A DNA stretch of 39,824 bases from Gammaproteobacteria bacterium (GTDB lineage: Bacteria > Pseudomonadota > Gammaproteobacteria > Steroidobacterales > Steroidobacteraceae), in contig JAURLT010000047.1 of NCBI GenBank assembly GCA_030831085.1, positions 1 to 39,824 of the forward strand, given 5' to 3'. Of this stretch, positions 8,205 to 26,501 are shown one piece after another (positions within the stretch are counted from its first letter, which is position 1; each line of letters starts with the position of its first letter). The position numbers and the translations under genes are program-made. The notes beneath the pieces are model-generated. The model saw only the letters and a program-made list of their open reading frames with translations. It ran no database searches and was not told where the DNA came from.

Positions 8205-10061
8205 TCAGCGGACGCGGGCGAGGGCCTCGAAGGCCTCGCGCAGGGTGCCCCGTGAATCTCGTCCGCTGGATCCGCCGGGCTGCCGATTGACCAGTCGGTC
8301 AGCGACTGCGACCAGGATCCCCGCCCGGTCGAGCCCGGCAGCTTCCAGGACCTCCTCACGGGTGCCGTGGTCGATGAACCTATCGGGGAGACCAAGATGC
8401 AGGACCGGCATGGCCACCCCATGCAGCGCCAGACACTCGCTTACCGCGCTTCCTGCGCCGCCGCTCACCGCGCCCTCCTCGACCGTCACCAGCAGGTCAT
8501 GCTGGCGAGAGGCCTGCAGGACGGCTTCCTGGTCCAGCGGCTTGACCGAGCGCATGTCGTAGACGCTCGCGTCGAGGGCCTCGGCAACTTCCATGACGGT
8601 TGCCAACAGAGTTCCGAAGCAGAGGAACACCATGCCGTTGCCCTGCCGCAGCAAGCGTGACTTGCCGATATCCATCAGCGTCATGCCCGGACCGGGCGTC
8701 GGGCCCGCCGCCGCGCAACGCGGATAGCGGACCGCCACGGGTCCGTCCCGGCGGACCGCGGTAAAGAGCATATCGCGCAGCTCAACGGCTGACGACGGGG
8801 TCAGCACGGCCATGCCGGGCAGTGTCCTGAGGAAGGCAAGGTCGTAACTGCCGTTGTGCGTTGCCCCGTCTGGACCGACCAGGCCACCGCGGTCGATGGC
8901 GAAGGTCACCGGCAAGGATTGCAGTGCGACGTCATGAATCACCTGATCGAGGCCGCGCTGCAGGAAAGTCGAGTAGATGGCAACCACCGGGCGTAATCCC
9001 TGACAGGCCAGGCCGGCGGCGAAGGTGACGCAATGCTGTTCGGCGATACCTACGTCGAAGTAACGGTCGGGAAAACGCTCGGCAAAGCGCACCAGGCCAG
9101 AGCCCTCCCGCATCGCAGGCGTGACGGCCACGATGCGCGGATCACGCTCGGCCATGTCACAGAGCCAGTCGGAAAACACGTCGGTGTAGTTGGCGACCCG
9201 ACGCCCGCTGCCGGTGATGCCCACCCGAGGGTCGAATGGCGTGACCCCGTGGTAGCGAATGGGGTCTGCTTCTGCCGGGATGTAGCCATTGCCCTTACGC
9301 GTGACCACGTGCAGCAGCTTCGGTCCTCCCCGGCGCCTCGCCTCGCGCAGTGCGTCCACCAGACCCAGCGCGTCATGCCCGTCGATCGGACCGCTGTAGT
9401 GGAACCCCAGCGTCTCGAAGAAAGGCCCGAGGTCCCGTGCCCGATCCGCTCCCTCGTGACCGAGGCTTTGGTGGAGCGCCCCTACGTTGCGCGAAATCGA
9501 CATGCCGTTGTCATTGAGGATGACCAGCAGGTCGGCGCCGCTGGCACCCGCGTGATTGAGTGCCTCATAGGCGAGCCCCGCAGTGAGGCCTCCGTCGCCG
9601 ATCACCGCCACGCTGCGAAAATCGGGGTCGTGCCTGTTTCCGGCAATGGCCATGCCCAGAGCGGCGCTGATCGAGGTGCTGGAATGTCCCGCGCCAAAAG
9701 CGTCATATTGGCTCTCTTCACGCCGTAGGAAGCCGGAAATCCCGTCCTTGCGACGCAACCCGCCGAACATCGGTCCGCGCCCGGTCAGCACCTTGTGCGG
9801 ATAGGCCTGATGGCCGACGTCCCAGATCAGCGCGTCACGCGGGGTCAGGTAAACGTAGTGCAGCGCGATGGCCAACTCCACCGTACCGAGCCCCGCTGCC
9901 AGATGGCCACCGGTAGTCGCGACCTCGCGGATCAGGAAGCCGCGCAACTCGTCAGCCAGGTGCGGCAGGTCGCCGGGCGGCAGTCGCCTCAGGTCACGGG
10001 GAGACCCGATACGCTCCAGCATCGGGAAGCCGGGCGCCAGACTGTGGACTACCGCTGCCAT
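8205..10061 (-). CDS. dxs: 1-deoxy-D-xylulose-5-phosphate synthase
   Basis: Thiamine-diphosphate enzyme that condenses pyruvate and glyceraldehyde 3-phosphate, the committed first step of the MEP pathway. It is 618 residues from the chosen ATG (MAAVVHSLAPGFP), a typical length; MLERIGSPRDL at 10022 is a possible later start. Visible motifs are the TPP-binding GDGGLTAGLAYEALNHAG and downstream NDNGMSIS, the transketolase-like DVGIAEQHCVTFAAGLA with the catalytic glutamate, and DRGGLVGPDGATHNGSYD. It lies 13 nt downstream of puhE and ends the bchF-dxs superoperon. Its stop is 6 nt from the convergent ispH stop. Confidence 0.96.
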   Translation of the reverse strand: MAAVVHSLAPGFPMLERIGSPRDLRRLPPGDLPHLADELRGFLIREVATTGGHLAAGLGTVELAIALHYVYLTPRDALIWDVGHQAYPHKVLTGRGPMFGGLRRKDGISGFLRREESQYDAFGAGHSSTSISAALGMAIAGNRHDPDFRSVAVIGDGGLTAGLAYEALNHAGASGADLLVILNDNGMSISRNVGALHQSLGHEGADRARDLGPFFETLGFHYSGPIDGHDALGLVDALREARRRGGPKLLHVVTRKGNGYIPAEADPIRYHGVTPFDPRVGITGSGRRVANYTDVFSDWLCDMAERDPRIVAVTPAMREGSGLVRFAERFPDRYFDVGIAEQHCVTFAAGLACQGLRPVVAIYSTFLQRGLDQVIHDVALQSLPVTFAIDRGGLVGPDGATHNGSYDLAFLRTLPGMAVLTPSSAVELRDMLFTAVRRDGPVAVRYPRCAAAGPTPGPGMTLMDIGKSRLLRQGNGMVFLCFGTLLATVMEVAEALDASVYDMRSVKPLDQEAVLQASRQHDLLVTVEEGAVSGGAGSAVSECLALHGVAMPVLHLGLPDRFIDHGTREEVLEAAGLDRAGILVAVADRLVNRQPGGSSGRDSRGTLREAFEALARVR

Positions 10062-10881: not shown

Positions 10882-11946
10882 CTACCAGGCCGGTGCCACC
10901 CGGATTGACTCCGGGAGCCGGTTGGGTAGCGTGGGCAGCAGGTACAGGCGCAGGAAGGCCAGGGCTCCGGCTGCGCCGCAGGCAGCCACCCGCAGGCGCC
11001 CGAGCAGGCCTCCGCGAGCCCGCGCGGCCTCAGCGCGCTCGGACAAGATCCGCAGCCGCTCGAGGCCAGCCCTGAACGCCGGATGATCGAGATCAAGAGT
11101 CAGCGGGAACACCTGGCGGGAGATCTCCGAGGTGATCCTGAAGACCTCGAAGTCGTAGTCAGTCGGATCCACCCCGAAGGCTTTGTGCAACTCGGGACGG
11201 GCATGGTCGCGTACGTACATGGTGGCGAAGACCGCCAGCAGGAAAAAGCGGATCCACAGGCGGTTGGGGCCCTGCAACAGCGCCGGATCGGCGCGCATCA
11301 GCAGCGCGAAGGCTTCACCGTGCCGGAACTCATCGTTACACCAGCGTTCGAACCAGCGAAAGATCGGATGGAAGCGCCGCTCCGGATGGCGCTCCAGCTC
11401 GCGGAAGATGCGGATGTAGCGCGCGTAGCCAATCTTCTCGGAAAGATAGGTGGCGTAGAAGATGTACTTGGGTTTGAAGTAGGTGTACTTCTTGGCCTTC
11501 TTCAGGAAGGTCAGGTCCAGCCCCAGGCCGAAGTCCTTCAGGGCCATGTTGATGAAGTTGGCGTGACGGGCCTCGTCACGCGCCATGAAGGCCATCAGCT
11601 CGCGCACGTCGGGATTCTTCACCTTGCGCCGGATGTCGTTGTAGAGCACGCAACCCGAGTACTCCGAGGTACAACTGCTGACCAGGAAGTCCAGGAATTC
11701 TTCCTTGAGGGCCGGCGGCAGGTCATGGATCTCGGCGACGAAATCGTCGGTACGTTGGAAATGGTTGCGGTTGGAGTCGTTCCTGAATTCGTTCATCAGC
11801 GCGTCCCACTCCCGCCGGATCGGCGTCGGGTCGAGACGATCCATGGCCGCGAAGTCGGTGGTGTAGAAGCGGGGCGCCAGGAGGTTTTCGGTCTGCGCCT
11901 TGCGGGTGCAATCCTCGACACTGGTGAAGGTTGTGGCTTGGCTCAT
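10882..11946 (-). CDS. acsF: Mg-protoporphyrin IX monomethyl ester oxidative cyclase AcsF
   Basis: Oxygen-dependent diiron cyclase that forms the isocyclic ring E. It is 354 residues. Ferritin-like iron ligands are visible: Glu95 (TSEYSG), Glu125 and His128 (DEARHANF), and Glu206 and His209 ([10 protein letters not shown]). A Lys/Tyr-rich segment ([16 protein letters not shown]) and the [13 protein letters not shown] motif are typical of AcsF. The C-terminus adds a hydrophobic stretch near residues 315-340 that could touch the membrane. It lies 10 nt after puhC in the superoperon. No anaerobic BchE is present in the window, so the visible route needs O2. Confidence 0.96.
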
Positions 11947-13893: not shown

Positions 13894-15336
13894 CTAGCCG
13901 GGGAACTCGGCCAGACCAAACCTGCCGGGCGGTGACCGCACCGGCGTAAAACCACGCTGCCCAACCAGTGGCCCGATGGCAGCCAGGCTGGCGAACAACA
14001 AGCCCACTTCGAGGTGATAAACGAACGCATAGCCGGCCACCACGGGATCGAGGCCCCCGCCCAGGTGACCCGCTGCGGCCAGTTGGCCGAAGACGTCGCG
14101 CAGCGCACCGCCCAAGGCGATGCCGAGTCCGGCCGCTGTCGCCTGCGCCGCACCCCAGGCACCCAGAGCCAGCCCATGATCGGCGCCGCCGGTTTCCAGG
14201 TTCATGGCTGCCGTCAGCGAGCCCACGGCGAACCAACCTGCGCCGAGACCGATGAGCGTGGTGCCGACCCTGAACAATCCCGGTGAGTGCAGTGTTGCGG
14301 CGAAGATCACTGCCGAGAAGGCCACGATTCCGGTCAGCGATCCCCAGGCCGCCAGCCGCAGGGGGTCGCCTCCGCGACCCAGCAGCCGGGCCGCAATAAT
14401 GAAAGCCAGCAGCGACCCGCCGGCCATGAATGCGGTCAGCAGGGTAGTGGCACCGACCGACAGGCCGAGCACCTCACCGCCGTAGGGCTCCAGCAGAACG
14501 TCCTGCATGCTGAAGCCGGCAGTGCCGAGGGCGACGGCCAGCAGGAAGCGCCGCGCGCGCGCTGCTTGCCCGAAGCGCCGCCAGGCCTCACCGAATTCGT
14601 TGCCCCGCGCGTCCTCGTCGCCGGCTTGAGCAGGCCGTCGCCGCTCCTGCTGCCAGAGCGCGACGACGTTGAGCACCAGGGTGACCACCGCGGAACCCTG
14701 CACCACCTGGATCAGGCGGAGCTGGGTGAAGTCGGACAGCAGCCAGCCGAAGGCCAAAGCGCTGGCCACCATGCCGCCAAGCAACATGACGTAGAGCAGT
14801 GCCACTACGCGGGGCCGTAACTCTGCAGGCGCAAGATCGGCAGCCAGCGCGAGACCCGCGGTCTGCGTGGTGTGCAGACCGGCGCCGACCAGCAGGAAGG
14901 CCAGTCCGGCGGCCATCGGGCCAATCCACAGGGGCCCGTGGGTGTCGCCGGATAGGATCAGGAGCGCGAAGGGCATGATGGCCAGCCCACCGTACTGCAG
15001 TAGCGTGCCCATCCAGATGTAGGGCACGCGGCGCAGGCCGAATACGGATCGATGGGTGTCCGACTTGAAGCCGATGAGTGCGCGCAGTGGAGCGAACACC
15101 AGCGGCAGGGACACCATCAGTGCCACCAGCCATGCCGGCACCCCGAGTTCCAGGATCATGACCCGATTAAGCGTCCCGGTGAGCAGGACCGTGGCCATGC
15201 CCACCGAAACCTGGAACAGAGCGAGTCGCAGCAGGCGGCTCAGCGGCAGCGCGTCGCTGCCGGCGTCGGCAAAGGGCAGCCAGGACAGACCGGTCCTGGC
15301 CCAGCGTCTGCTCGGGTTGCCGACGGAGAGGTTCAC
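13894..15336 (-). CDS. lhaA: LH1 assembly protein LhaA (PucC/BCH2 family)
   Basis: Major-facilitator-like membrane protein (480 residues, about 12 helices) needed for LH1 assembly and thought to deliver bacteriochlorophyll to antenna polypeptides. The core has the family sequence GTLNRVMILELGVPAWLVALMVSLPLVFAPLRALIGFKSD and RVPYIWMGTLLQYGG. I chose GTG at 15336, which overlaps the bchM stop (GTGA) and gives the usual length; the open frame upstream lies inside bchM. Position between bchM and puhA identifies it as LhaA. A second PucC-family gene follows bchG. Confidence 0.93.
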   Translation of the reverse strand: MNLSVGNPSRRWARTGLSWLPFADAGSDALPLSRLLRLALFQVSVGMATVLLTGTLNRVMILELGVPAWLVALMVSLPLVFAPLRALIGFKSDTHRSVFGLRRVPYIWMGTLLQYGGLAIMPFALLILSGDTHGPLWIGPMAAGLAFLLVGAGLHTTQTAGLALAADLAPAELRPRVVALLYVMLLGGMVASALAFGWLLSDFTQLRLIQVVQGSAVVTLVLNVVALWQQERRRPAQAGDEDARGNEFGEAWRRFGQAARARRFLLAVALGTAGFSMQDVLLEPYGGEVLGLSVGATTLLTAFMAGGSLLAFIIAARLLGRGGDPLRLAAWGSLTGIVAFSAVIFAATLHSPGLFRVGTTLIGLGAGWFAVGSLTAAMNLETGGADHGLALGAWGAAQATAAGLGIALGGALRDVFGQLAAAGHLGGGLDPVVAGYAFVYHLEVGLLFASLAAIGPLVGQRGFTPVRSPPGRFGLAEFPG

Positions 15337-16033
15337 GTCAACACCAACTCCAGGGCCTGCGAGGTGTAGAAACCGCTGGCGATACGCTCGCTCCTGCCTG
15401 TCCACCACTGATCCAGGCCCGAATGGCCGGCGATCAGGGTGAGCAGTCGATGCGGGGCAATCGGCTCGATCGACGGCGCGCGATCGCTGCGGGGAAACCA
15501 TCGCCCGGCCGCATGCATCAGGCTGAGCGCCGGCGTACGGGGCGCGAAGGTGAACAGCATCTTCTGGCGCGTCCGCCTGGCCAGCTCGCCGAGCGCTGCC
15601 ACCACGTCAACGTCGGGGTAATGGATCAGGGAATCCATGGCCACTACGTAGTCGAAGTGGCCGAGGTGCGGGTCCAGCATGTCACCGACCCGGAACGATA
15701 CCCTGCCGGCGCCGAGATCACCGGGCATGCGCTCGCCCGCCAATTGCACCAGGGTTGGAGAGATATCGACTGCTACCACCTCGGCGCCACGTCGGGCGGC
15801 CTCGATCGCCAGTGCGCCGGTACCGCAGCCCGCATCCAGCAGCCGGGCCCCACGCAGGTCGTCAGGGAGCCAGCTGAGTAGCGTGCCACGCATGCGATCG
15901 CGTCCGGCGCGCACGGTAGCCCGGATGCGGCTCACCGGCGCGTCTGAGGTCAGCCTGGACCAGGCCTCAGCGGCCGTGCGGTCGAAGTATTCCTCCAACT
16001 GCCCGCGGCGGCGGGTGTAACGGGTGCTTTCCA

Positions 16034-22145: not shown

Positions 22146-23926
<1,781 letters not shown>

Positions 23927-23961
23927 ATATATGTCTACTCCCCCTGAACCCCGCGATAACC

Positions 23962-23990
23962 ACTGTAGGCACGGGCTGGAAACCTGTCAA
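23962..23990 (-). promoter_or_regulatory. Putative sigma70 promoter of bchF superoperon
   Basis: Read on the minus strand: a perfect -35 TTGACA (23985-23990), a 17-nt spacer and a -10 TACAGT (23962-23967, 4 of 6 consensus). Transcription would begin near 23955, leaving a ~30-nt leader before the bchF ATG with a GGGAG ribosome site. The -35 hexamer is part of the PpsR-like operator. Seen as sequence; promoter activity is inferred. Confidence 0.5.
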
Positions 23991-24018
23991 CAAAAAATGA
24001 CGTAAATAAAAGTTGACA
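23985..24018. promoter_or_regulatory. Paired PpsR/CrtJ-like operators between divergent promoters
   Basis: Two near-consensus PpsR half-palindromic boxes (consensus TGT-N12-ACA) share two bases. Box 1 is TGTCAACAAAAAATGACG (23985-24002). Box 2, 24001-24018, is its counterpart on the opposite strand, CGT-N12-ACA. Each has one base off the consensus at the inner end. The outer arms TGTCAAC and GTTGACA form a 34-bp imperfect palindrome, and each outer arm contains the -35 hexamer of one divergent promoter. A repressor bound here would block both. The regulator genes aerR and ppsR are adjacent, which supports the call. Confidence 0.55.
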
Positions 24019-24042
24019 CAAATCGTCCCGGCAGAGGATGAT
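24013..24042 (+). promoter_or_regulatory. Putative sigma70 promoter of aerR-ppsR operon
   Basis: Perfect -35 TTGACA (24013-24018) with an 18-nt spacer to GATGAT (24037-24042, 4 of 6 matches to the -10 consensus). The start would be near 24049, giving a ~120-nt leader that contains two further inverted repeats. The -10 is weak, so an activator or another start is possible. Shares its -35 with operator box 2. Confidence 0.4.
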
Positions 24043-24072
24043 TTCTCGGAGCGGTGTCCCATGAGCCGGTTC

Positions 24073-24089
24073 ATGTTGCGTTGCAACAT
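24073..24089. repeat. Perfect inverted repeat ATGTTGC-N3-GCAACAT
   Basis: Seven-base perfect arms around a 3-nt centre, in the aerR leader region. It does not have the TGT-N12-ACA spacing of a PpsR site or the FNR-box pattern, so it is either an operator of another dimeric regulator or a small RNA hairpin. Seen in sequence; function unknown. Confidence 0.5.
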
Positions 24090-24097
24090 AGGAGTTG

Positions 24098-24127
24098 TGT
24101 CTTTTTAGGTTGACGCATGATGTCAAC
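24098..24127. promoter_or_regulatory. Third PpsR-like box with overlapping GTTGAC/GTCAAC inverted repeat
   Basis: 24098-24115 reads TGT-N12-ACG, the same one-base departure from the PpsR consensus as box 1. It overlaps a perfect 6-bp inverted repeat, GTTGAC (24109-24114) and GTCAAC (24122-24127), 7 nt apart. The arms repeat the TGTCAAC/GTTGAC words of the upstream operator 90-110 bp away. Cooperative binding by a PpsR-type repressor across both sites, possibly with looping, is inferred. Confidence 0.4.
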
Positions 24128-24172
24128 CCATGAGAGACAGGAAGACCGAGGGGCTCTGCGGGGAGGCGGGCC

Positions 24173-24991
24173 ATGAGCGAGTTTGGGGGTGATGGGATAG
24201 GCGGCAGTTCTGGCCCAGCCTGGAACGGTCCGCACGTGCATGGAATAGTCGAGTGGGAGGTTGTTCCCCGGCTCGCTACTGCCCATGGGGTGCGGAGCCC
24301 GACCGCGGACGCCGCGTGGATACGCCGTGAAGACGTCGAGTTCTTTACCCGCTGCGCCGTAGAGCGGGACGCGCTCGCCCTGCACGATTTCCTGGAATCG
24401 TTGCGCCTGGCGGGTGCCAGTCACCAAACCCTCTTGCTGGAAGTGATAGCCCCAGCGGCGCGAGCGCTCGGCGTGCAGTGGGAACAGGACAGCTGCGATT
24501 TCGCAGCGGTCACGGTCGGCGTCGGGCGCATGCAGCAGGCCATGCGGATGCTGACGCCCGACAGCCTGGTGCCGTCACTCGAGGGTGTGGTCGCCCCGCG
24601 GCGTGCCTGGCTGTCGGTGGGGCCGGGCGAACAACACACTTTGGCGGTAGGGATCCTGAGTCACTGCCTGCGTGGCGCGGGCTGGCAGGTGGATGGGCCG
24701 GGTGCCGCCGATACGGCGAGTCAACCCCTGCGTGCGCTTAGCGAGCACTGGTACGACATGGTCGGCCTGTCGGTGCAATGCCACCGTTTCCTGGAGGACC
24801 TCAGCCGGCAGATCGAGCGATTGCGCGACTGCTCCCGTAACGAAAACCTCAGCATCATGGTTGGAGGAATGCCCTTTCTCAGCGACCCTGGCCTGGCCGC
24901 CGAGGTGGGCGCCGACCTGACCGCGATCGATGCGCGCGAAGCGGTGTGCGCTGCCGATGAACTGGCTGTCAACCGCGCCAAACAAGACTGA
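24173..24991 (+). CDS. aerR: Cobalamin-binding antirepressor AerR/PpaA
   Basis: Regulator of the photosynthesis cluster (272 residues) that in Rhodobacter modulates CrtJ/PpsR in a B12- and light-dependent way. After a ~50-residue variable N-terminus there is a helical B12-cap-like region (LGVQWEQDSCDFAAVTVGVGRMQ, about 99-121) and a Rossmann-type B12-binding domain starting LSVGPGEQHTLAVGILSHCLRGAGWQV. His155 in GEQHTL aligns with the cofactor-ligand histidine of the AerR/PpaA (SCHIC) group. GGGAGGCGGG precedes the ATG. It is next to ppsR, as in other purple bacteria. Confidence 0.92.
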   Translation: MSEFGGDGIGGSSGPAWNGPHVHGIVEWEVVPRLATAHGVRSPTADAAWIRREDVEFFTRCAVERDALALHDFLESLRLAGASHQTLLLEVIAPAARALGVQWEQDSCDFAAVTVGVGRMQQAMRMLTPDSLVPSLEGVVAPRRAWLSVGPGEQHTLAVGILSHCLRGAGWQVDGPGAADTASQPLRALSEHWYDMVGLSVQCHRFLEDLSRQIERLRDCSRNENLSIMVGGMPFLSDPGLAAEVGADLTAIDAREAVCAADELAVNRAKQD

Positions 24992-25001
24992 ATGGATCGA
25001 G

Positions 25002-26501
25002 GTGAAATTGTCGAGCAATTCCCAGGTTGAGCCAGTGAACCGGCCGACCGCATCGAGTGAAATCAAAGTAGTGCAGGCCGGAGTGACCGGTTTTTCTGCC
25101 GCAGAAACCTCGTTGTCCGGACTGACTGCCGACGACTCGGGACGCGTGTTGGAGGCGACCAGCGACGTGGCGCTGGTCATCGATGAGCGCGGCCTGATCC
25201 AGGACCTCGCTTTTGGCACTGAAGAGATGTCGGCCGAGGGTTTCGAGGGCTGGCTTGGCAGGCCGTGGATCGATACCGTCACTGTGGAAAGCCGCCCCAA
25301 GATCGAGGCTATGCTCGCCGACGCCGGAGTGGGCCGTCCTCCGCGCTGGAGACAGGTGAATCATCCGACACCGGCGGGCGTGGACGTGCCGGTCATGTAC
25401 TCGGCAGTCCCCTGTGGTCGGACCGGGCGGATCATTGCAGTGGGGCGTGACTTGCGCGGCATTGCACAGCTTCAGCAGCGCCTGGTCGATGCCCAGCAGG
25501 CCATCGAGCAGGATTATTGGCGCCTGCGCCATGCTGAGACCCGCTATCGCTTGCTGTTCGAGATGGCCAGCGAGGCGCTGCTGATCATCGACGCGTCAAA
25601 TCGCAAGATCGTCGAGGTGAATCCTGCTGCAGCGGCCCTGCTTGGCGAGCCGGCGAGGCGCCTGACCGGCCAGTCCTTCCCGCGCGCACTTGATCCGGAA
25701 GGCTCGCGCATCGTCGGCGACCTGCTCGACGCCGTGAAAGTTGCCGGCCGGGCTGACGCGGTACAGGTCAGGCAGGCTGATCGGCCAGGTACGTTATCCG
25801 TGTCCGCTTCAGTCTTCCAGCAGGATGGCACGGCGCTGTTTCTGGTGCGCTTGAGTCTTCAACGGGGTGCCGGCGAGGCGCCGGCACAGGATGCTGCCAA
25901 GCTGCGTTTGCTGCAGGTCATTGAAAGCTCGCCGGATGCGATGGTGGTGACCGACCTCGATGGCAAGGTCATTCTCGCCAACCGGTCTTTCCTCGACCTG
26001 TCGCAGGTTTCCCACCTCGAACAAGCCCGGGGCCAGTCGCTGGATCGCTGGTTCGGTCGGCCGGGCGTTGACCTGAACGTGTTGCTGGCCAACCTGCGTC
26101 GGCATGGCTCAGTGAAGCTGTTTGCCACGACCCTGCGGGGCGAATTTGGCGCGGCCAGCGAGGTCGAGATATCGGCCGTTGCAGTCACCGATCCGGACAC
26201 ACCCTGTCACGGGTTCGTGATTCGTAACGTTGGCCCGAGGCTTGGGCGGGATACCCGCACCGAGGGCCATCTCCCGCGCTCGGTCCAGCAGCTCACCGAG
26301 CTGGTCGGACGTGTTTCCCTCAAGGAGTTGGTCCGCGAGGCAACCGACGTGATTGAACGGCTATGCATTGAAGCCGCGCTCGAGGTCACCGGTAATAACC
26401 GCGCCTCTGCCGCCGAGATGCTCGGCCTCAGTCGCCAGAGCCTTTACGTCAAGCTCCGCCGTTACGGGCTCGGCGAGTCGGGCGACGCCCAGGAGGAGTA
26501 G
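25002..26501 (+). CDS. ppsR: Transcriptional regulator PpsR/CrtJ
   Basis: Repressor of photosynthesis genes (499 residues from GTG at 25002; ATG at 24957 inside aerR is less likely because GTG has a GGA box 5 nt upstream and lies just after the aerR stop). Order of domains: an N-terminal PAS-like region (SDVALVIDERGLI), a Gln-rich helix (LQQRLVDAQQAIEQDYWRL), PAS1 (RLLFEMASEALLIID), PAS2 (VIESSPDAMVVTDLDG) and a Fis-type helix-turn-helix (NNRASAAEMLGLSRQSLYVKLRRYGL, about 466-490). Cys455 precedes the HTH and may match the redox cysteine of CrtJ. The PAS1 region contains no cysteine. Only three cysteines are present: C138, C402 and C455. Confidence 0.95.
   Translation: MKLSSNSQVEPVNRPTASSEIKVVQAGVTGFSAAETSLSGLTADDSGRVLEATSDVALVIDERGLIQDLAFGTEEMSAEGFEGWLGRPWIDTVTVESRPKIEAMLADAGVGRPPRWRQVNHPTPAGVDVPVMYSAVPCGRTGRIIAVGRDLRGIAQLQQRLVDAQQAIEQDYWRLRHAETRYRLLFEMASEALLIIDASNRKIVEVNPAAAALLGEPARRLTGQSFPRALDPEGSRIVGDLLDAVKVAGRADAVQVRQADRPGTLSVSASVFQQDGTALFLVRLSLQRGAGEAPAQDAAKLRLLQVIESSPDAMVVTDLDGKVILANRSFLDLSQVSHLEQARGQSLDRWFGRPGVDLNVLLANLRRHGSVKLFATTLRGEFGAASEVEISAVAVTDPDTPCHGFVIRNVGPRLGRDTRTEGHLPRSVQQLTELVGRVSLKELVREATDVIERLCIEAALEVTGNNRASAAEMLGLSRQSLYVKLRRYGLGESGDAQEE

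Follow-up and report, generated by a model that had tools for sequence, protein, structure and literature searches.

A fused 34-bp candidate PpsR/CrtJ operator between divergent bchF and aerR-ppsR promoters, and its conservation outside Rhodobacterales

Control of photosynthesis genes by PpsR/CrtJ is mostly known from Rhodobacterales, where each flanking operon has its own boxes. The published systems are described here from excerpts of the cited papers. PpsR exists in equilibrium between dimers and tetramers (PMC9144470, PMC3949515), and the tetramer is the form in which CrtJ binds to paired boxes (PMC9144470). Two classes of PpsR operator are recognized, one of close pairs, separated by about 8 nt, and one of distant pairs with looping (PMC9144470). 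The bchC tandem (PMC5362033, PMC9144470) consists of a pair of TGT-N12-ACA boxes with some 8 nt between them, or 26 bp centre to centre, at one promoter. R. sphaeroides (PMC4344238) and D. shibae (PMC10890935) have a divergent bchF-aerR/ppaA junction with PpsR control on both sides and separate bchF and ppaA motifs; the D. shibae junction carries several separate PpsR sites, and mutated PpsR half-sites at its bchF promoter lead to derepression (PMC10890935). Congregibacter litoralis, a gammaproteobacterium, uses the box TGTcaN8tgACA in pairs overlapping promoters, and 12 of its 15 sites are reported as tandems whose boxes are separated by 7 or 8 nt; no fused pair appears in the excerpts (PMC2654016). 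In Rubrivivax, PpsR binds promoters with the mismatched boxes TGT-N12-ACG and cGT-N12-ACA (PMC4452267), the same two forms that we describe below. The excerpts of the literature searched gave no account of a PpsR operator with overlapping boxes, and an earlier one in the older key papers is possible.

We analyzed a 39,824-nt stretch of DNA from a member of the Steroidobacteraceae (the window), which has the same divergent junction. The genes on either side of the junction are as follows.

23408..23926, minus strand: bchF, the first gene of a bchFNBHLM-puh-acsF run (TIGR02020, 179.6 bits, cut-off 101.35)
24173..24991, plus strand: aerR/ppaA-like gene, a B12-binding antirepressor homologue, named from its B12 domain and position ahead of ppsR
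24930..26501, plus strand: ppsR/crtJ open reading frame, overlapping the 3' end of aerR (TIGR02040, 513.8 bits, cut-off 275.4)

The aerR-like product matches PF02310 (B12-binding) with 41.2 bits against the Pfam cut-off of 32.1, and its gene lies directly upstream of ppsR, as is required of AerR/PpaA, antirepressors that bind B12 and modulate PpsR according to light or redox. The ppsR product combines the TIGR02040 equivalog match with the Fis-type helix-turn-helix of a PpsR/CrtJ regulator (HTH_8 at 475-512); the TIGR02040 match starts at residue 74, and the true start of ppsR is uncertain. Residue 479, within the helix-turn-helix region, is a cysteine (IERLCIEAA). CrtJ has a redox-active Cys420 in its helix-turn-helix region (PMC9144470), to which residue 479 may correspond. 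An exact TGT-N12-ACA lies at 24967-24984, across the end of the aerR/ppsR overlap (24930-24991). Leftward, the genes are bchF, bchN, bchB and bchH, then bchL, bchM, puhA, puhB, puhC, acsF and dxs. The minus-strand run reaches the end of acsF at 10882 (about 13 kb) and that of dxs at 8205 (15.7 kb), so that a pigment and puh gene run of about 16 kb, as stated in the original prediction, was borne out for the open reading frames scanned from bchF to dxs. A 535-aa open reading frame at 13894-15501 had no NCBIfam match. Rightward, the aerR-like gene and ppsR are followed by bchG, a PUCC-family gene and bchP.

Between bchF and aerR lies a 34-bp element, TGTCAACAAAAAATGACGTAAATAAAAGTTGACA, read directly from bases 23985-24018.

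23985..24018, no strand: fused PpsR-type candidate operator, 34 bp, TGTCAA-N9-ACGT-N9-TTGACA (direct read; 88 of 128 bchF loci)
23985..24002, plus strand: box 1, TGTCAACAAAAAATGACG, TGT-N12-ACG (direct read, relatives' junctions)
24001..24018, plus strand: box 2, CGTAAATAAAAGTTGACA, CGT-N12-ACA (direct read, relatives' junctions)
23998..24005, no strand: centre, TGACGTAA, where the two inner half-sites meet (57 of 66 distinct elements have ACGT)

The ACGT core occupies 24000-24003, and 24001-24002 belong to both candidate PpsR boxes, each of which has one mismatch to TGT-N12-ACA. The reading of these bases thus agreed with the two boxes, two shared bases and one mismatch apiece that had been proposed. 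Two perfect boxes are impossible with a 2-base overlap because ACA ends in CA and TGT starts with TG; the CG found in the overlap leaves one mismatch per box. Paired PpsR boxes have 7-9 nt between them or lie at a distance, whereas the boxes here overlap by 2 bp. As judged from its bases, the element is a putative variant of the PpsR/CrtJ operator and not a standard tandem. It resembles the bchC tandem in its candidate boxes, presumed regulator family and overlap with predicted sigma-70 promoter elements, and the box centres of both are offset by half-integral helical turns. It differs from that tandem in the 16 bp between its box centres, the fusion of its inner half-sites and its two divergent promoters.

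Scans for exact TGT-N12-ACA miss the fused element because each of its boxes has the forced mismatch. In the window they returned 3 matches against 3.84 expected and neither fused box, and these chance-level counts were dropped as evidence. The composite pattern (16 bases, at most 3 mismatches) matched the window only at 23985-24018, with 0 mismatches and 0.07 matches expected. Exact TGT-N12-ACGT-N12-ACA occurred once in the window's 2.5-Mb genome (89% complete), at the same place, a count that is not significant alone. Genome-wide, the pattern with 1 mismatch was wholly background (25 against 28), and the extended PpsR box TGTCA-N8-TGACA with 2 mismatches was mostly background (381 against 304 in the reversed control). 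There are other repeats between the element and aerR. A weaker PpsR-like box, TGTCTTTTTAGGTTGACG, lies at 24098-24115 between the predicted aerR promoter and the start codon and runs into an inverted repeat, GTTGAC-N7-GTCAAC, at 24109-24127. This feature (24098-24127) is kept in the closest relative, G002, and was seen in none of the other 11 junctions compared. The aerR leader also contains a perfect inverted repeat, ATGTTGC-GTT-GCAACAT, at 24073-24089, which is not intact in G002.

The outer arms of the element coincide with predicted promoters. A scan of 23600-24400 predicted 2 promoters against 0.2 in shuffled sequences, TTGACA-N17-TACAGT on the minus strand for bchF and TTGACA-N18-GATGAT on the plus strand for aerR.

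23985..23990, minus strand: −35 TTGACA of the predicted bchF promoter (scan; left arm TGTCAA in 65 of 66 elements)
23962..23967, minus strand: −10 TACAGT of the predicted bchF promoter, spacer 17 (scan; geometry in 60 of 65 elements)
24013..24018, plus strand: −35 TTGACA of the predicted aerR promoter (scan; right arm TTGACA in 45 of 66 elements)
24037..24042, plus strand: −10-like GATGAT of the predicted aerR promoter, spacer 18, weaker (scan; geometry in 28 of 65 elements)

The proposal that the arms are perfect −35 hexamers of oppositely directed promoters was therefore matched by the scan. Among the conserved elements analyzed below, the outward −10 geometry was found on the bchF side in 60/65 (background mean 8.5%) and on the aerR side in 28/65 (background mean 12.1%), being absent by the same test in 37/65. 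The case for the predicted bchF promoter is strong and that for the aerR promoter, the weaker half, is moderate. Overlap with sigma-70 promoter elements of photosynthesis genes is a property of PpsR/CrtJ operators, and the element shows it with respect to predicted, conserved promoters.

We then compared bchF loci of related phototrophs. A bchF gene was present in 14 of 98 genomes (own and relatives). In the class sample 8 of 369 genomes had a bchF match (7 over the cut-off), and in the phylum sample 32 of 398 (31 over the cut-off). Named loci were the best 80 of 578 confirmed stretches, which biases them towards the query set, and species may overlap between the genome and named-locus collections. 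The survey, which includes loci from these best 80 of 578, comprised 128 bchF loci, 111 of them with divergent aerR. The window duplicate L053 and the fragment L055 were left out beforehand, and G611 and G623, from which no locus was obtained, are outside the survey. Of 13 junctions read individually (own and relatives), 11 had the 34-bp element, and so did a fourteenth, L047. G067 and G080 have TGTCAACTCAGGTAGACA-N8-CGTACCATCAGCTTGACA at bchF-aerR, a canonical tandem of 44 bp, exactly 10 bp longer. A TGT..ACA outer palindrome (at least 9 of 10 positions) with a length of 34 bp occurred at 70/128 loci against a shuffle mean of 0.65; every other length from 19 to 60 was found at 8 loci or fewer, and single 18-bp boxes at 49.

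With a 16-position score of at least 13, the element was found at 88/128 bchF loci (0.15 per 128 in shuffles). Outside Rhodobacterales it was present at 76/81 loci with divergent aerR. It was also present at 9/12 loci with a divergent ppsR-like gene and no aerR found (one of the 12, L116, is a partial, weak hit, E 3.5e-11), and a requirement for aerR was rejected on this ground. Where no divergent regulator was found within the available 1.4-2.5 kb, it was present at 1/5 loci, the exception being L087. Six of the loci lacking it outside Rhodobacterales have another pair, spaced by 26 bp in L037, L040, L054 and L117 and possibly by 25 bp in L155 and L165; L090 and L162 have divergent aerR with neither the fused element nor a 25- or 26-bp pair. 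In Rhodobacterales only 2/30 loci scored at least 13, and neither is convincing: both L063 and L154 had a score of 13, the first being doubtful as a fused site and the second matching poorly in its right arm. This group includes f236 and L150, assigned from tree position and box layout and not from name. Full boxes stood 124-156 bp apart in 26/30 Rhodobacterales loci, in line with the separate control that had been ascribed to Rhodobacter. The distance was 142-145 bp in 17/30 (e.g. L095, L113, L118, L152), and such near-constancy suggests a constrained spacing. The fused arrangement had been called unusual, which holds only in comparison with Rhodobacter and fails outside Rhodobacterales.

The consensus of the fused element is TGTCAA-N6-TTGACGTCAA-N6-TTGACA. 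It was derived from 66 distinct elements, which are 69 loci with identical repeats merged and L079 omitted for its short flank. They were selected by their outer arms, and the centre served only as a tie-breaker within a locus. Positions 1-6 are TGTCAA in 65/66, the right arm is TTGACA in 45/66 and the centre is ACGT in 57/66, or 57/65 in the set without L078, a Rhodobacterales element in another register with the centre GTGT. In these 65 elements ACGT occurred at none of 1040 other interior positions. The columns beside ACGT lean to TTGAC on one side and GTCAA or GTAAA on the other, which are PpsR half-site bases and not promoter bases. Among the best 80 of 578 named loci, fused ones come from alpha-, beta- and gammaproteobacteria and include Acetobacteraceae (4/4), Erythrobacteraceae (2/2) and Sphingomonadaceae (1/1). 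Two single MAG contigs labelled Myxococcota and Acidobacteriota (L087 and L123) also carry bchF and a fused element, which could reflect transfer or mis-binning. On a BchF tree of 155 columns, which is poorly resolved and leaves the ancestral state unproven, the layout is clustered, with 13 changes against 33.9 in shuffles.

The spacing of the boxes depends on the site. At the bchF junction, box centres were 16 bp apart in 40/128 loci (stricter threshold) and 26 bp apart in 3. For bchC, 40 of the 49 bchF-bearing genomes were searched and 30 loci returned; the pair was 26 bp apart in 21, 25 bp in 3, 16 bp in 1, 13 bp in 2 and 51 or 52 bp in 2, and 1 had no pair. The box threshold was looser for bchC than for bchF, and a Fisher test mixing both is only indicative. 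A 10-bp step turns one spacing into the other, and each occurs at the other's site: the tandem at bchF-aerR in G067 and G080, the fused form before bchC in G063. The window's own genome has 26 bp at bchC and at the divergent crtE-crtC junction. We rejected the idea of a fused site at every divergent photosynthesis promoter pair, given this crtE-crtC spacing and the fused site of G063 at a one-way bchC promoter. The pattern with at most 1 mismatch was found in 32 of the 49 bchF-bearing genomes, once in each except G063 (two), with none in the reversed control, and in 31 of the 32 it lay at bchF. Of 20 further genomes behind the named loci, 17 had a match with up to 2 mismatches (control 1). Across all 69 genomes, 5 matches with 0 or 1 mismatch were elsewhere than at bchF: G727 has one between bchN-like and FrhB-family genes, G063 one 32 bp before bchC as identified by family match, G848 one ahead of a hemA-like gene, G847 one upstream of a bchJ-like V4R gene and G840 one near a P-II-like, non-photosynthesis gene named from its translation alone. 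The assignments of hemA, bchJ and bchN are based on Pfam domains and a reading of the translations. Four of the five are at bacteriochlorophyll or tetrapyrrole genes, which fits PpsR, and the G063 element at bchC counts against a confinement of fusion to divergent promoters.

We consider it likely, from the sequence comparisons, that the element represents a third, fused class of PpsR/CrtJ operator which represses bchF and aerR-ppsR together. Two 18-bp PpsR boxes would lie so close together that their inner half-sites touch (TTGAC next to GTCAA), with one terminal mismatch per box as the price. The box centres are then 16 bp apart, about 1.5 helical turns, compared with 26 bp or about 2.5 turns in the canonical tandem. 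Repressors binding opposite faces of DNA are the comparison case for such a site. The step of 10 bp, about one turn, and the occurrence of each geometry at the other's site suggest two dimers in phase, and two PpsR dimers (one tetramer) may sit on opposite DNA faces with the relative phase of the canonical tandem. Their occupancy would cover both −35 hexamers and block RNA polymerase at bchF and at aerR-ppsR. Pigment synthesis by the bchFNBHLM-puh genes led by bchF would be repressed from the fused site, and the same site would provide autoregulation of PpsR and its B12-binding partner. The anatomy, conservation, promoter geometry, spacing and association with the neighbouring regulator gene are observed; PpsR binding, double occupancy and repression of both promoters we infer from them. 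The way in which the element tracks a divergent regulator gene (76/81, 9/12 and 1/5) supports a fused double operator, and one site probably sets both operons together. Of the joint silencing by one complex that had been predicted, the conserved operator on divergent −35 boxes stands, and the simultaneous silencing follows by inference.

The chief rival is exclusive binding, in which a single PpsR dimer is bound at a time, box 1 silencing bchF and box 2 silencing aerR-ppsR, and the repressor is partitioned between the operons as by an either/or switch. The two shared bases, the abutting inner half-sites and the mismatch in each box would suit such a switch. An exclusive pair needs no phasing, however, and the 16- and 26-bp spacings are about one turn apart and interchange at bchF-aerR and bchC; we hold this reading to be unlikely. 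It is somewhat unlikely that the bchF promoter alone is controlled, with aerR-ppsR expressed mainly from another start under weak autoregulation. The weaker −10 on the aerR side (28/65) would agree with this, as would the constant ppsR level of a Sphingomonas strain on illumination (PMC11406998), but the element follows the divergent regulator gene, and ppaA/ppsR expression goes with that of the target genes in Sediminicoccus (PMC10949492).

Two further explanations concern the role of PpsR itself. That the arms are mere −35 boxes, with the centre roleless or the site of another protein and PpsR acting elsewhere (e.g. at 24098-24115), appears highly improbable. The arms do match the sigma-70 −35 consensus, and the −10 geometry is conserved. 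Promoters alone would leave unexplained the TTTACA or CTTACA of the right arm in 15/66 elements, a variation like that of PpsR half-sites, as well as the fixed 34-bp length with its ACGT centre, the near-copies at a one-way bchC promoter and at other tetrapyrrole genes, and the lack of the element in 4/5 loci where no divergent regulator was found. A PpsR-AerR activation platform, in which the fused site helps to switch both operons on, is decidedly unlikely. Occupancy of −35 hexamers is typical of repression, and here both would be covered. In its favor, CrtJ peaks of R. capsulatus persist under photosynthetic conditions, in which AerR also extends the CrtJ footprint at bchC (PMC5362033); this evidence is from Rhodobacterales, in which the boxes are separate.

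Published expression data, seen in excerpts, are mixed with respect to joint repression by the fused site, and the aerR limb is the weakest part of the mechanism. In Sediminicoccus, where ppaA/ppsR follow their targets, bchC and puc are the only places for which the authors list PpsR sites (PMC10949492). The level of ppsR stays constant as pufM declines in D. shibae and the compared Sphingomonas strain, and it is unchanged in Gemmatimonas (PMC11406998). D. shibae belongs to the group with split boxes, so its constant ppsR fits the model. The Sphingomonas case may not fit co-silencing; its sphingomonad relatives in our survey are fused, and the strain itself is outside it.

We lean slightly to the view that fused operators are, besides a third class, the point from which the photosynthesis cluster of purple bacteria was ancestrally controlled, and that Rhodobacterales split the fused site into two boxes. 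One 34-bp site would then hard-wire bacteriochlorophyll synthesis to PpsR-AerR autoregulation. The fused motif can now be used by other surveys, and it offers a possible sequence explanation for the behavior of ppaA/ppsR in Sediminicoccus (PMC10949492). If the proposal is true, most of the other purple bacteria sampled tie the level of the repressor to its main target at one site, and the expected dynamics would differ, with repression that limits itself.
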